A DNA stretch of 64,000 bases from assembly GCF_002943755.1 (NCBI RefSeq), contig NZ_MQUB01000001.1:838501-902500 (forward strand), read 5' to 3'. The DNA comes from Aureitalea marina. GTDB taxonomy: Bacteria; Bacteroidota; Bacteroidia; Flavobacteriales; Flavobacteriaceae. A program made the position numbers and the translations under genes. This document shows, piece after piece, positions 56,969 to 61,800 of this stretch (positions are counted from its first letter, which is position 1; each line of letters starts with the position of its first letter). The notes under the pieces are model-generated. The model made no database searches, was not told the DNA's origin, and was given only the letters and a program-made list of their open reading frames with translations.

Positions 56969-58183
56969 CTATTGACGGCGGTTGGCAAGCAAGGGTGGAG
57001 GGCCTCCATTAAAGGGGTTCCAACGGCTGATGCTCTTGGCTCCCATTCCGGCAGCTTTGATCACGGATCGGTCACCATAACGTTCCCTCATCTTGTCCAT
57101 GGCCTGGTAGAGGTTAATGATCTTTTCATTATCGTCAAAGAGGTCGATCTGGTAACCTCCTCCTACTAGGTGACTGAATCTGACTCCGACCAGTCTGACC
57201 AGCATCCGCCTTTGGTAGAGCCGGCGGTAAAGCTCCATCACCACCGGGATAATCTGGTGATCTGCGGAGGTGTAGGGGATCCTTCTTTGCTGGGTATAGG
57301 TCTGAAAATCAGAATAGCGGATCTTAAAGGTGATACAGGCCGTTAGTTTGTTTCCCCGCCGCAATTGGTAAGCCAGGTTTTCGGCCATGGCAACTATTAT
57401 GCTTTCCAGCTTGCGGGTGTCTGTGGTATCCCTGTCGAAGGTGCGTTCGGTAGAAATAGACTTTCTTTCGGTATACTGCACCACAGGGGAGTTATCTATT
57501 CCATTGGCCTTTTTCCAGATCATTTCCCCGTGCTTTCCAAAGACCTTGCTCATCATCTCCAGGGGCATTTCCTGTACAGTACGTATGCGCTTGATTCCCA
57601 GGTCGCAGAGTTGACGGTAGGTGACCTTGCCCACCATAGGGATCTTTCCTACCGAAAGGGGAGAGAGGAAAGGCTTTTCTGTACCCTGGTCAATATAGAG
57701 CTGGTTGTTGGGCTTGGCCTCACCGGTAGCGATCTTGGAGACTGTTTTATTGATGGAAAGCCCAAACGAAATAGGCAGTCCGGTCTCTCGCATGATCCGT
57801 TGACGCAGTTCGGAGGCCAGTTTGTTACAGCCAAAGAACTGATCCATTCCGGTGAGATCTATGTAGAATTCGTCTACGGAGGTTTTTTCATAGAGCGGTA
57901 CATTTTCCTTGATGACCTGGGTGACGGTATCGGAGAACTTGCTGTAAACCCCTGAGTTTCCTCTTAGAACAATGGCTTCCGGGCACAATTGCTTGGCCAG
58001 TCGCATGGGCATGGCAGAATGGATCCCAAATTTCCTGGCCTCGTAACTACAGGAAGCCACTACACCTCTGTCTGAGGTGCCACCTATCAGTACTGGTTTG
58101 CCAATCAGTTGGCTGTCCAGCAACCGCTCGCAGGATACAAAGAAGGTATCCAGGTCCATATGAAGAATGTGGCGGGAAGACAT
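56969..58183 (-). CDS. dinB: DNA polymerase IV (Y-family translesion polymerase)
   Basis: A 404-residue Y-family polymerase. Catalytic motifs are LHMDLDTFFVSCE (residues 7-19) and KTSVDEFYIDLTG (about 102-114). SCSYEARKFGIHSAMP lies between them. The thumb/little-finger part includes VGKIPMVGKVTYRQL and SISTERTFDRD. There is no clear C-terminal beta-clamp motif that I can name. It copies damaged DNA at the cost of mutations. It is the last gene of the minus-strand dnaE-GIY-GIY-dinB group and is separated from the GIY genes by CGTTAAT-type repeat sequence. Confidence 0.95.
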   Translation of the reverse strand: MSSRHILHMDLDTFFVSCERLLDSQLIGKPVLIGGTSDRGVVASCSYEARKFGIHSAMPMRLAKQLCPEAIVLRGNSGVYSKFSDTVTQVIKENVPLYEKTSVDEFYIDLTGMDQFFGCNKLASELRQRIMRETGLPISFGLSINKTVSKIATGEAKPNNQLYIDQGTEKPFLSPLSVGKIPMVGKVTYRQLCDLGIKRIRTVQEMPLEMMSKVFGKHGEMIWKKANGIDNSPVVQYTERKSISTERTFDRDTTDTRKLESIIVAMAENLAYQLRRGNKLTACITFKIRYSDFQTYTQQRRIPYTSADHQIIPVVMELYRRLYQRRMLVRLVGVRFSHLVGGGYQIDLFDDNEKIINLYQAMDKMRERYGDRSVIKAAGMGAKSISRWNPFNGGPPPLLANRRQ

Positions 58184-58194
58184 ATGTGTTAATC

Positions 58195-58210
58195 GTTAAT
58201 CGTGATTCGT
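58195..58210 (+). repeat. Direct repeat copy 1 (GTTAATCGTGAyTCGT)
   Basis: This 16-bp sequence matches 62250-62265 at 15 of 16 positions. The two copies enclose dnaE and both GIY-YIG genes (about 4 kb). Confidence 0.55.
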
Positions 58211-58218
58211 GACTTGAT

Positions 58219-58542
58219 CTACGTCACTTCGAGTGTTCGTCGAAGACGGACGTATCGAGAAGCTTTTTTAGCTAAAACCCTAAGTTTATTAAAATCCTCT
58301 TCAATTAATGCTTCTTTCTTTGACCGAGACCATTTTTTTATTTGCTTCTCCTTTTCGATAGCTAAATTGATATCAGTAAACTCGGCATAAAAGACCAACT
58401 CTACCGGCCTTCTGGTATGGGTATAAGATTCAGGATAGCTGCCATTGGTATGAGAAAGCAATCGTTTTTCGAGATTACTTGTAACACCAGTGTAGAAGGT
58501 TTGGTCTGAACATTTCAGTATGTATACATATGATCTTTTCAT
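58219..58542 (-). CDS. Stand-alone GIY-YIG family nuclease
   Basis: A 107-residue single-domain protein of the small UPF0213/YhbQ-like GIY-YIG group. YVYILKC (residues 5-11) and FYTGVTSNLEKRLLSH (about 16-31) provide the GIY-YIG strands and the catalytic Arg region. RRPVELVFYAEFTDINLAIEKEKQIKKWSRSKKEALI contains the conserved Glu/Lys helix. Its last 14 residues (ASRYVRLRRTLEVT) are encoded inside a palindromic repeat (58223-58262), and another inverted copy of the repeat lies 10 bp before its start. The gene therefore looks like cargo of a small repeat-bounded element. The DNA target is unknown. Confidence 0.85.
   Translation of the reverse strand: MKRSYVYILKCSDQTFYTGVTSNLEKRLLSHTNGSYPESYTHTRRPVELVFYAEFTDINLAIEKEKQIKKWSRSKKEALIEEDFNKLRVLAKKASRYVRLRRTLEVT
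58223..58262 (+). repeat. REP-like palindromic repeat, copy A
   Basis: 40 bp: GTCACTTCGAGTG, a hairpin (CGTC GAA GACG core, extendable to 58235-58251), then GTATCGAGAAG. It encodes the C-terminal residues of the GIY-YIG protein on the opposite strand. Confidence 0.7.
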
Positions 58543-58551
58543 GATGTTTAA

Positions 58552-58595
58552 GTTCTCGATACAATTTTACCTGCGGTAAAATCACTCGAACTGAC
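58552..58595 (-). repeat. REP-like palindromic repeat, copy B
   Basis: 44 bp on the minus strand: GTCAGTTCGAGTG, a perfect hairpin (ATTTTACC/GGTAAAAT, 58564-58582, loop TGC), then TGTATCGAGAAC. The first part encodes the last residues (RQFE) and stop of the upstream GIY-YIG gene. Confidence 0.7.
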
Positions 58596-58818
58596 GGGAT
58601 GAGCTTACAAATTGATTTTTAAGTGATAGCTCGCTACTCACAGCCTGAGACAAGCTGTTGAACTCCAGGCATTGAGCCAACTGTACAGGCCGGCGGTTGC
58701 GAGTATTGTTGCGTTTTCCTGCTTTGTGCTCTTGCATACGCTTGGACAGATGGCGGGTGATGCTGCTGTAATAGCTATTGTCGGCACATTTTAAGAGATA
58801 GACATAGTATGTTTTCAT
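58582..58818 (-). CDS. Degenerate/short GIY-YIG family protein
   Basis: A 78-residue GIY-YIG relative. YYVYLLKCADNSYYSSITRHLSKRMQEH aligns by eye with the start of the neighbouring nuclease, but the YTG of the second strand is SS here. The C-terminal helix is cut: after SSELSLKNQF the frame runs into repeat copy B and stops as VSSSRQFE. It lacks the Lys/Ser-rich final helix, so it is probably a decaying copy or inactive. It lies between dnaE (63-bp gap holding the 7-mer array) and the intact GIY-YIG gene. Confidence 0.65.
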   Translation of the reverse strand: MKTYYVYLLKCADNSYYSSITRHLSKRMQEHKAGKRNNTRNRRPVQLAQCLEFNSLSQAVSSELSLKNQFVSSSRQFE

Positions 58819-58820
58819 TT

Positions 58821-58873
58821 CGTTAATCGTTAATCGTTAATCGTTAATCGTTAATCGTTAATCGTTAATCGTT
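58821..58873. repeat. Tandem 7-mer array (CGTTAAT) x 7.6
   Basis: Seven perfect units of CGTTAAT (58821-58869) and a partial CGTT. The array starts 3 bp upstream of the degenerate GIY-YIG start codon and ends 7 bp before the dnaE stop. Related words (GTTAATCGTTAATCGT, ACTAACGACTAACGAC) occur at 58188-58203 and 62295-62311. Confidence 0.95.
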
Positions 58874-58880
58874 TCACGCT

Positions 58881-61800
58881 TCACTCCCCACGCTTCATGT
58901 TCTTATATCGCTTGCCCCTCATCCGGGTGGTAACCACCCCTTCGGCATAGCGGGGATCTTCTATGATGGCCAGGCGCTCCATCTTACTGACCTCTAAAGT
59001 CAGGCAGCCAAATTCTTCCATCACTACTCCAGTGATGCGGTAAATCCCTTTACCTCTAAACCGGTAACGAGCAGCAACAGGAGGGAAGTGGACTGTATCG
59101 ATAAAGTCCCCGTCAGCATCCAGGAAGGTCCCGAAGTACATGGTCTTTTTGCCGGAAGTCGTGGTGCGTTTGGTAGTCACCAAGTAGCCATCTACAGTAA
59201 CCTCTTTTTTGATAAAATGGACCAGATCGCGGGCACGCATCCAGTTCCCTGAGGTCTCCAGTAGTAGTTGGAAAGGGCTGCACAGTGGATATCCCAGGAG
59301 TTCCATCTCGTCAAAGGCGTCCTCCAATTGGCTGCTGGGTAGGTTAGGGGTCTTGAAGTCTCGTTTCTGTGCTCGGAAGAGCGTTTGTTCCGATTGCTCC
59401 AGACTAACCTTGTTGATCTTCATATGAGCCTCCCACAGGAGTTCCCTCTTATTTCGACCCGTAAAACGAAAGCTGTCAATCTTGATCAGGATACTGATCT
59501 GCTCCATGGAAATGGGAACCCGTTCGATAAAATCGTCCAGGCTGGCAAAAAGCCCTGCTGCCTCCCGATCCTCGACCAGGCGCTTAATGACCCGTCTTTC
59601 CAGAGCATGGAGAAACATAAAGCCCAGGTAGATATCCTTTCCCCGGATCAGGGTTTCGGACCGGCTGATGTTGACACAGGGAGGGTGTATGCGCCCTCCG
59701 TGCATACGGGCTTCGTGTACATAGAACTCAGTACGATAAAAACCACCAAAATTATTGATGGTGGCCACCATGTATTCCAATGGGTAGTAAGCCTTGAGAA
59801 AAAGACTTTGGTAGCTCTCTACGGCATAGGAGGCGGAATGTCCCTTGGCAAAGGCATAACCAGCAAAACTCTCGATCTGCCTCCAGATCTCCCGGGTAAG
59901 CTCATCAGACTTTCCACTGTTCTTGCAGTTGTCAAAGAAACGCCCCTTGACCTTCATGAATTCGTTCCGGGAACGGAACTTGCCAGACATTCCTCTGCGA
60001 AGCATATCCGCCTCGCCCAGGGTAAGCCCTCCAAAATAATGAGCTACTTTGATCACGTCTTCCTGATAGACCATGACCCCATAAGTCTCCGGCATAATGT
60101 CCAGCAGCACCGGATGGGCATCCTTGCGACGTTCCGGGAAGCGATATCGCAGTATGTATTCCCGCATCATTCCGGATTGGGAGACCCCTGGCCGGATAAC
60201 CGAACTAGCGGCCACCAGCCCCAGGTAGTCATCTACCTGCAATTTGCGCAACAGCATCCGCATGGCCGGCGACTCCACATAAAAACAGCCAATGGCTTTT
60301 GCGTTGCGCAGCAGGTATTTGATCCGTTCGTCTTGTTTAAAGCGCTTGATATCGTGGATGTCAATAGGGGGCTTTTTGGGATGATTATAGCGAATCACTT
60401 CTACGGCGTCCTTGATCTTTCCCAAACCCCGCTGACTGAGAATGTCAAACTTGTACAGTCCGATGTCTTCTGCAACCACCATATCGAATTGGGTAGTCGG
60501 AAAACCTTTGGGGGTAAGAAGGTGGCCGTGTAATAGTGGATGGGTTTTTCGGAGATCAGTATGCCCCCGGCATGTATTCCCAGATAGTTTGGGAAACCCT
60601 GTATGCTTTCACTGTAGATGAGCACCAGCCGGGATAGTTTATCCAGTTTATCCGGGCGAATGTCACCTCCTGAAAGCCGGTCGATCTCACTTTTGGGCAG
60701 GCCAAAGACCTTGCCCAGCTCCCGCACAGAAGCCTTATACTTAAAGGTGTTGTATACAGTGAGCAAGGCCGTGTGGGGAAAGCGACGGAAGATGAATTCG
60801 GTGATGTCGTCCCGGTCACTCCAGGAAAAGTCGATATCAAAATCGGGTGGATTCTTTCGATACAGGTTGATAAAACGTTCAAAATAGAGATCAAGTTCTA
60901 CTGGGTCCACATCGGTGATGCGCAGCAGGTAGGCAATGATGCTGTTGGCCCCGCTACCGCGACCCACATAGAAATACCCTTTGCTACGAGCGTATTTCAG
61001 GATCTTCCAGTTGATCAGGAAGTAGGAGACAAAGCCCTTTTCATGTATGATATCCAGTTCCTTCTCGATCCGTTTCATTACACGGCCTCCCGGACGTTTG
61101 TAGCGGTAGGACAGACCAGCATAGGATAACTTGCGGAGCAGCCGGTAGTCCAGCCCGGTATTGCCGGTATAGCTGCGTTGGTTATTAGGAACTTCCTGGC
61201 TAAAGTCAAAATCGATACTACAGCTGTGCAATAACTTTTGTGTGTTTTCCAACAGCCAGGGGAATTCCTCATAGGCTTTGATCAGATCGTCCGGGGGGCA
61301 GATGAGGTCTTCGGGATGCCCCTGATCAGTTACTGGTAGCTTGCTCAGTAGGGTGTTTTTGTCAATGGCCCGCAGCAGCCTGTGGGTATTGAATCCCTTT
61401 TTGTCCTTAAAGGATACGGTGTGCAAGGCCAGCAATTTTTCTGGCTGTTCCTTCCAGTGAGAGAACTTCAGTCGGTTAAGATCACTTGCCCTGACCCCGA
61501 GGAACTCATTCTCCTTGAGACCTTTTCCCTTGTAAGTAGCAAAAGGATAAACCACCAAGGTGTCTGCCAGTGGTACCGGCTGCTCAGGTATCTTGAGTTG
61601 CTGTTGGTGCAGAAACCCAGAGAGGTAGTTGTTGATCTGCAGGAAACCGTGATTATTCTTGGCCAGTAGTATGAACTGTTGTCGGGCTCCCTGTCTGAAA
61701 TCTACCCCTATGACCGGCTTCAAACCATAGCGAGGTGCCAGACGCACAAAGTCCAGGCAGGCCGAACTGTTGTTGATGTCTGTCAGGGCCATACAGTCAA

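Follow-up and report, generated by a model that had tools for sequence, protein, structure and literature searches.

The question raised by this locus is why a small GIY-YIG nuclease gene should lie between two inverted palindromes, and whether gene and palindromes belong together. The locus lies in a 64,000-nucleotide stretch of the Aureitalea marina genome (contig NZ_MQUB01000001.1, positions 838,501 to 902,500 of the forward strand), which is referred to here as the window. We consider it probable that the unit is a minimal mobile element, in which the nuclease gene is carried between inverted CGTC- or TGTC-tagged palindromes (repetitive extragenic palindromic sequences, REPs) that form its ends, the nuclease acting on its own repeats. 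Elements of this type have their tags directed outward, are mostly about 350-500 bp long and lack a target-site duplication. An initial annotation of the window had put forward a small nuclease that spreads, or is spread, together with palindromic repeats, much as REP-associated tyrosine transposases (RAYTs) are paired with REPs; the comparative tests described below favor this proposal, the enzymatic part of which we infer.

The palindrome-bounded nuclease gene of the window

The two ends of the unit (Table 1) are inverted copies of one repeat. The outer 13 bases (GTCACTTCGAGTG at 58223-58235 on the plus strand and GTCAGTTCGAGTG at 58595-58583 on the minus strand) are equal at 12 of 13 positions and the inner 10 (GTATCGAGAA) at all 10, exactly as had been described; the bounds of the unit are set one base further out because a C precedes both copies (CGTCA). 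When the whole window was searched with the pattern GTCANTTCGAGTG at up to two mismatches, only two matches were returned, both exact. A loose count of two is not above chance (shuffle mean 4.2), so the weight rests on the exactness of the matches and on the whole-genome counts. The 3.07-Mb host genome (4 contigs) contains 11 exact copies by a strict pattern and 12 by a looser one, a low copy number, and a reversed control pattern had no match in this genome in either version; the expectation that the repeat recurs outside this locus is thereby borne out. All 11 strict copies carry the CGTC tag.

Between its constant ends the repeat has a core that varies in sequence and keeps its pairing. In 56 distinct copies taken from the loci retrieved, the bases that follow GTCA and GAGAA form G-C in 29, C-G in 25, A-T in one and A-G in one, so this variable tag-adjacent base is compensated in 55 of 56; a core stem of at least 6 bp is present in 51 of 51 distinct cores versus 47% of shuffled cores. 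The combination of constant ends with a core that is free in sequence yet paired is thus genuine, as the initial annotation had read from the two differing hairpins of the window. Cores of window-type repeats within one genome (G029 and others) are almost wholly different between the constant ends, and our guess is that a core changes with its pairing kept through template-switch correction. The base preceding GTC in the 56 copies is T in 30, C in 24, and G and A in one each. With an unpaired tag at one palindrome end and multiple copies in the genome, the window repeat falls into the CGTC-tagged REP super-family. It consists of a short outer stem (STTC/GAAS) and a variable core hairpin without a CCA tail, and the features of CGTC families 1-4 (a stem of 8-9 bp starting with A-T, a loop of 4-5 and a CCA-type tail) were not found in it.

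Table 1. Features of the unit and its surroundings (window positions).
Feature	Positions	Strand	Basis
Insert between the dnaE-like gene (58881-60482) and the dinB-like gene (56969-58183), TTAATCG-type heptamers near borders	58184-58880		Synteny comparison
Whole unit, 375 bp: GIY-YIG gene between two inverted repeats with outward CGTC tags	58222-58596	-	Sequence reading
GIY-YIG nuclease gene, 107 aa, YVY..YTG..R..H..EK kept	58219-58542	-	Pfam PF01541, E 1.6e-17; 11-protein alignment
CGTC-tagged palindrome A (CGTCACTTCGAGTG, core hairpin, GTATCGAGAAG), downstream end of gene	58222-58262	+	Pattern matches
CGTC-tagged palindrome B (CGTCAGTTCGAGTG, core hairpin, GTATCGAGAAC), upstream end of gene	58552-58596	-	Pattern matches
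Second GIY-YIG reading frame, 78 aa, degenerate, ends in palindrome B	58582-58818	-	Pfam PF01541, E 7.8e-10

The last codons of the nuclease gene are read through palindrome A and its stop stands just outside the repeat, in agreement with the earlier remark that the coding end lies within the repeat. Residues Y7, Y18, G20, R28, H32 and E65 are invariant in an alignment of 11 proteins that includes the window protein; the domain therefore has both motif tyrosines, the Gly, the Arg and the Glu of the GIY-YIG superfamily. Metal-dependent DNA cleavage is predicted for this protein; purifying selection on its relatives (see below) bears on it indirectly. The profile matched three solved structures, UPF0213 proteins 1zg2 (E 1.2e-12) and 1ywl (E 9.6e-10) and SLX1 7cq2 (E 0.006); no NCBIfam family was matched by the window protein. 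The initial annotation omitted the second GIY-YIG open reading frame (ORF), which is 39% identical to the first. By eye, its YTG has become YSS, and because the invariant Gly of the second motif is thus lost, this ORF is probably a relic of an older element.

Five GIY-YIG matches were found in the host genome: two long frames of 599 and 463 aa, presumably UvrC and a DnaQ-like protein, the two ORFs of the window, and a third small gene (L013) that stands between inverted copies of a second repeat, GTCATTCCGG..CCGGAATC. The host has four exact copies of this second repeat, two flanking L013 with AGTC tags and two elsewhere with TGTC; it is nearer to CGTC families 1-4 in stem and tail, and three of the four copies have a CCA tail.

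Association and co-specificity of nucleases and repeats

Two sets of relatives were surveyed. The family set comes from a search of 60 genomes in the host's family with the window protein; 36 of them gave 95 matches in total. Of these, 92 lie outside the host genome, and 80 were fetched, mostly with 8 kb on each side, the ten weakest and two close second copies being omitted. For the all-phyla set, one genome per species was scanned with the 11-protein alignment and the best 80 of at least 573 confirmed relatives were used, a sample biased toward relatives of the first sequence; going by the titles of the records, its members belong to Bacteroidota, Alpha-, Beta-, Gamma- and Deltaproteobacteria, Chloroflexi, Patescibacteria, Ignavibacteria, Nitrospirae, Armatimonadota and others. 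As control genes we used simple ATG-to-stop ORFs of these loci, and a tag-anchored pair was defined by a CGTC or TGTC anchor with at least 9 of the 10 following bases equal.

Inverted tag-anchored pairs flank the GIY-YIG gene at 18 of 80 family loci versus 0 of 688 control genes, and at 36 of the best 80 all-phyla loci versus 1 of 696, which puts the association suggested by the initial annotation far above the controls. Inverted repeats with a score of at least 16 across the gene were found at 22 of 80 family loci; the same score was reached by 3 of 218 small ORFs and by 2 of 400 pairs formed across loci. The control genes are taken as the main null because cross-locus pairs score high in the all-phyla set (35 of 400 at score 16), where one consensus recurs between phyla. 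A motif-free search listed 60 9-mers enriched within 350 bp of the family genes, most of them REP-like by eye. The palindromes also have a prevailing polarity: strict GTCA-palindromes within 100 bp of family genes are 12 outward and none inward upstream, and 15 outward and two inward downstream; strict palindromes within 50 bp in the all-phyla set are 34 outward and seven inward upstream, and 38 outward and eight inward downstream. Their density in the latter set is about 9 per kb within 50 bp of the gene versus 0.03-0.08 per kb beyond 1 kb.

Units with a repeat pair (73 in number) have a median length of 423 bp, with quartiles of 392-491. A classical DDE insertion sequence, recognizable by its target-site duplication, was considered and rejected: 66 of the 73 units share fewer than two outside bases, and 66.2 are expected by shuffling. 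Long direct repeats (score at least 16) surround 38 of 80 family GIY-YIG genes (L047-L126) versus 0 of 374 control genes; they were not counted as target duplications because many are copies of the repeat plus its spacer or flank.

The nuclease and repeat sequences evolve together, as comparison of the predicted proteins with their flanking repeats shows. At 73 of 162 tested loci a tag-anchored pair was present at a threshold of at least 8 of 10; over these loci protein identity correlates with repeat similarity (rho 0.44, reached in 0 of 2000 permutations), and the repeat is common to 93% of nuclease pairs above 70% identity and to 2% of pairs at 30-40%. The family alone gives rho 0.48 (0 of 5000 permutations), and there the nearest relative in another genus has the same repeat in 24 of 30 cases, 4.8 being expected. 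When repeat labels were swapped among paralogues of the same genome (seven genomes with more than one paralogue), the observed score was reached in 13 of 5000 trials; host relatedness is removed from this test because the swaps are confined to one genome. In 12 of 13 pairs of same-genome paralogues the repeats differ clearly, with 3 to 7 of 10 bases equal.

Co-occurrence points the same way. The initial annotation took the window-type repeat to be common in flavobacteria, and it is indeed present in 25 of 60 family genomes; a GIY-YIG match is found in 24 of these 25 versus 12 of the 35 without the repeat (p 5.9e-7). A second type of repeat, GTCATTCCTG..GCAGGAATC, was detected in 12 of the 60 and is associated with a matching nuclease subfamily (5 of 6 versus 7 of 54, p 0.0008), the subfamily having been defined afterwards at 58% identity. 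The subfamily of the window protein is associated with the first repeat (8 of 10 versus 17 of 50, p 0.0095) and not clearly with the second (p 0.1).

Some other arrangements were seen among the surveyed loci. A tandem array at G013:C15:33639-36839 is built of repeat-plus-spacer units of about 181 bp with two embedded GIY-YIG genes. At L123 and L126 (genomes G031 and G054) a different GIY-YIG subfamily stands between a truncated start copy and a complete copy of what we take to be an NAD-dependent epimerase-like gene (ITGGAGFI), and each junction has the sequence GG(A/G)TTTAACCCGTGAAAT, the pattern expected of a homing gene by which its target is restored. The GIY-YIG genes of L116, L122 and L125 lie beside or inside tRNA-like sequence with duplicated pieces, a tRNA-Asp being called at L116 and L122 and none at L125.

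Filled and empty sites, and the alternative explanations

Empty sites, which the initial annotation had asked for, exist at the window locus, in Sphingobium and in Bradyrhizobium. For the window locus, the 20 best other dinB loci (L128-L147) were compared; in eight of them the dnaE-like gene adjoins dinB, on the side where it lies in the window. Neither a GIY-YIG gene nor the repeat was found at any of these eight syntenic loci, where the alignment gap between the two genes is at most 32 bp as against an insert of about 700 bp in the window, leaving no space for the 41-bp repeat. These relatives belong to other genera, and the insert borders defined by them are approximate. TTAATCG-type heptamers lie near both borders (58188-58223 and 58822-58892); around GIY-YIG genes, heptamers present in three copies are only slightly more frequent than elsewhere (33 positions in 80 kb versus 272 in 1098 kb).

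Site states were followed most closely in Bradyrhizobium. A 23-base pattern (the inner repeat arm plus the next bases, at most one mismatch) was found at 27 places in 9 of 12 genomes of this genus; at two of them (G075 and G079) it forms gene-less inverted pairs 75 bp apart, and many other printed places have a diverged second arm nearby. Such gene-less pairs have the shape of REPINs (REP doublets forming hairpins) or of miniature inverted-repeat transposable elements (MITEs), and the inner flanks beside the repeats are common to gene-bearing and gene-less units. A scan of 117 genomes with the region of one locus, L171, revealed copies elsewhere, 40 of which were fetched; together with L171 these fall into six flank groups (19, 13, 5, 2, 1 and 1 members), which do not equal six sites because the two largest include one intergenic site in opposite orientations. 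L171 and L304, which have different flanks, are 81% identical over 407 bp, from GTCGTCATTCC to GGAATGACAAG. Of the 918 alignments of at least 250 bp between flank groups, an outward tag lies within 4 bp of the start in 370 and of the end in 293, compared with 68 and 75 for random positions. The frame with its motifs is uninterrupted in 32 of the 41 copies, and the ratio of nonsynonymous to synonymous substitution rates (dN/dS) has a median of 0.09 over 346 pairs; the intact copies are under purifying selection, and the element depends on its protein.

At the L171 site, 30 fetched loci comprise two filled sites, 14 with 23-75 bp between the flanks and 14 with one flank only. At a second Bradyrhizobium site, 41 of the 60 loci examined have both flanks. 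The full element is present in seven of them (L304-L309 and L313; L305 with an extra repeat), a longer form in three (L310-L312), and in eleven the occupant belongs to another subfamily, has inner flanks unlike those of the full element and lies in the opposite orientation. Two loci have the repeat pair without the gene (L375 and L376), one an internally deleted element (L387), and eight one palindrome alone, whose ends are of the GTC type (L374, L378, which ends in GAG, L379, L380, L388, L390, L391 and L392); L381 is empty, with 22 bp, and the remaining eight loci contain other repeats or degenerate sequence. The loop of L390 is exactly that of the right repeat of the full elements, and those of L374 and L391 differ from it by one change, the outcome to be expected of a deletion between the common ATTCCGGG arms. 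Comparison of these states shows presence/absence polymorphism, with gene-less pairs and single palindromes at the same sites; comparison also shows the repeats to be the ends of the element.

We propose that the nuclease recognizes the tag and hairpin of its own repeat and may nick or cut at the tagged hairpin; repair or joining of the break would spread the element and its gene-less derivatives, whether by homing into palindromes already present or by transposition of the unit as a whole, and loss of the DNA between the matching arms of the two repeats could leave single palindromes. A hairpin substrate would be in keeping with the activity on branched DNA of GIY-YIG relatives such as SLX1, the profile match to SLX1 being weak.

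Several observations weigh against this proposal. The strict tag test is failed by 62 of the 80 family and 44 of the 80 all-phyla loci, some of which are decayed, some members of other GIY-YIG subfamilies and some flanked by other tags, such as AGTC on both sides of L013. At two loci, Sinorhizobium L264 (CCTC tags) and Neisseria L266, the repeat closest to the gene on either side points inward, with outward ones at a greater distance; at Sphingobium L267 the repeats are outward on both sides. One paralogue pair, in G024, has similar repeats (8 of 10), the second family repeat is not clearly associated with a GIY-YIG match of any kind (10 of 12 versus 26 of 48, p 0.06), and the second subfamily is associated with the first repeat too (p 0.04). 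Two of the Bradyrhizobium flank groups (L337 and L338) match L171 over the gene only, and movement within one strain lineage was not caught in the genomes compared. Finally, a small GTC..GAC palindrome is present, by eye, in 6 of the 14 L171-site empties (L278, L281, L284, L285, L289 and L293), and a GTC..GAC palindrome is found at two of four empty sites on Sphingobium plasmids, with the arms of the filled site in TYG64 and with changes in TYG74, the other two having an unrelated hairpin. Palindromes at some empty sites also fit insertion into a pre-existing palindrome.

These last observations bear on the alternative that the repeats were spread by something else and that the GIY-YIG gene is a homing-type parasite which cuts them and is copied into them. 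The absence of a target-site duplication and the occupation of one Bradyrhizobium intergenic site by two element subfamilies in opposite orientations would likewise suit homing. However, single palindromes would equally be left by deletion between repeat arms (ATTCCGGG or ACCCCGGG), as the loops of L390, L374 and L391 suggest; the eight relatives at the window locus have no room for a repeat, the window-type repeat is found in only one of 24 genomes without a GIY-YIG match, and gene-bearing and gene-less units have their inner flanks in common. We regard homing into REPs as unlikely, and a mobile element bounded by its own repeats as the better account of the data.

A second alternative makes the gene a passenger caught between two repeats that owe their movement to a RAYT or to some other transposase. 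In its favor, the movement of GTAG REPs is ascribed to RAYTs, and tyrosine transposases are encoded by many species that have CGTC repeats (PMC3733652). Against this, the Y1 transposase profile (PF01797, Y1_Tnp) had no match in the host genome, the same search being positive in 5 of 14 control genomes; PMC3733652 itself reports no CGTC-flanked tyrosine transposase and few fortuitous associations with other transposase classes. A passenger would not be expected to evolve together with the repeat, nor to belong to one gene family across many phyla, and we hold this explanation to be very improbable. Least credible is that the palindromes are terminators or mRNA stabilizers of any small gene and that their pairing with GIY-YIG genes is incidental, given the near absence of pairs at the control genes (0 of 688 and 1 of 696), the presence of repeats on both sides with a prevailing polarity, and the end of homology at the outer tags between close copies with different flanks.

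Comparison with known systems

We know of no case in which the GIY-YIG fold moves DNA with ends of its own in bacteria. Free-standing GIY-YIG homing endonuclease genes are small and mobile and insert between host genes, each with one cognate gene; the units described here differ in being bounded by palindromes, in having repeats that exist without the gene and in occupying several sites per genome. SLX1, which cuts branched DNA, and UPF0213 are host proteins with no known link to flanking repeats.

A close likeness is to the REPtron, in which, in work attributed to Nunvar in 2010 and Bertels in 2011, a RAYT is reportedly partnered with GTAG REPs and REPINs. Both systems have a nuclease gene beside tagged palindromes, gene-less inverted pairs, single palindromes and co-specificity of nuclease and repeat, and the GIY-YIG units lack a target duplication, which RAYTs are not known to produce either. 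Flanking tagged palindromes and gene-less pairs are thus found here in form, but an HUH/Y1 transposase is not: the enzyme has the unrelated GIY-YIG fold, and the tag is CGTC or TGTC rather than GTAG. By analogy, GIY-YIG nucleases would mobilize CGTC REPs as RAYTs are thought to mobilize GTAG REPs.

CGTC REPs were defined by Di Nocera et al. (2013; PMC3733652), who describe them mostly as head-to-head dimers in five phyla, the alphaproteobacteria foremost, apparently without a dedicated transposase, and suggest extinct elements or broad-range transposases as their source, leaving the matter to later studies. In that paper 'GIY-YIG' is absent and 'excinuclease' appears once, concerning REPs inside repair genes; 'transposase' and 'nuclease' are absent from PMC12306157. 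Among the best-ranked matches in the open-licence PubMed Central literature, judged by titles, beginnings of abstracts and term counts, no link of GIY-YIG to REPs, dRS3 or REPINs was found. CGTC REPs, including dRS3 of Neisseria, resemble the repeats described here in their CGTC, TGTC or CCTC tag, their hairpin, the CCA-like tail present in many units and their head-to-head dimers (PMC3733652), and in Neisseria gonorrhoeae a GIY-YIG frame lies among CGTC-type repeats. The difference is that the repeats here bound a nuclease gene, and that the core of the window repeat is variable and a CCA tail is absent from it.

We incline, with some reserve, to a broader view in which the enzymes missing from the CGTC REP super-family are small GIY-YIG nucleases and their units are pan-bacterial minimal mobile elements, the source of many CGTC-type repeats; such elements would rely on a GIY-YIG nuclease that acts on the tagged hairpins at their ends, in place of any known transposase. 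The pairing names a testable candidate enzyme for these REPs, with matched sets of nucleases and repeats. If the view is correct, many genes now named GIY-YIG nuclease family protein or excinuclease ABC subunit C in annotations would be parts of mobile elements, and the partnership of a nuclease with REPs would have originated a second time, independently of that between RAYTs and GTAG REPs.
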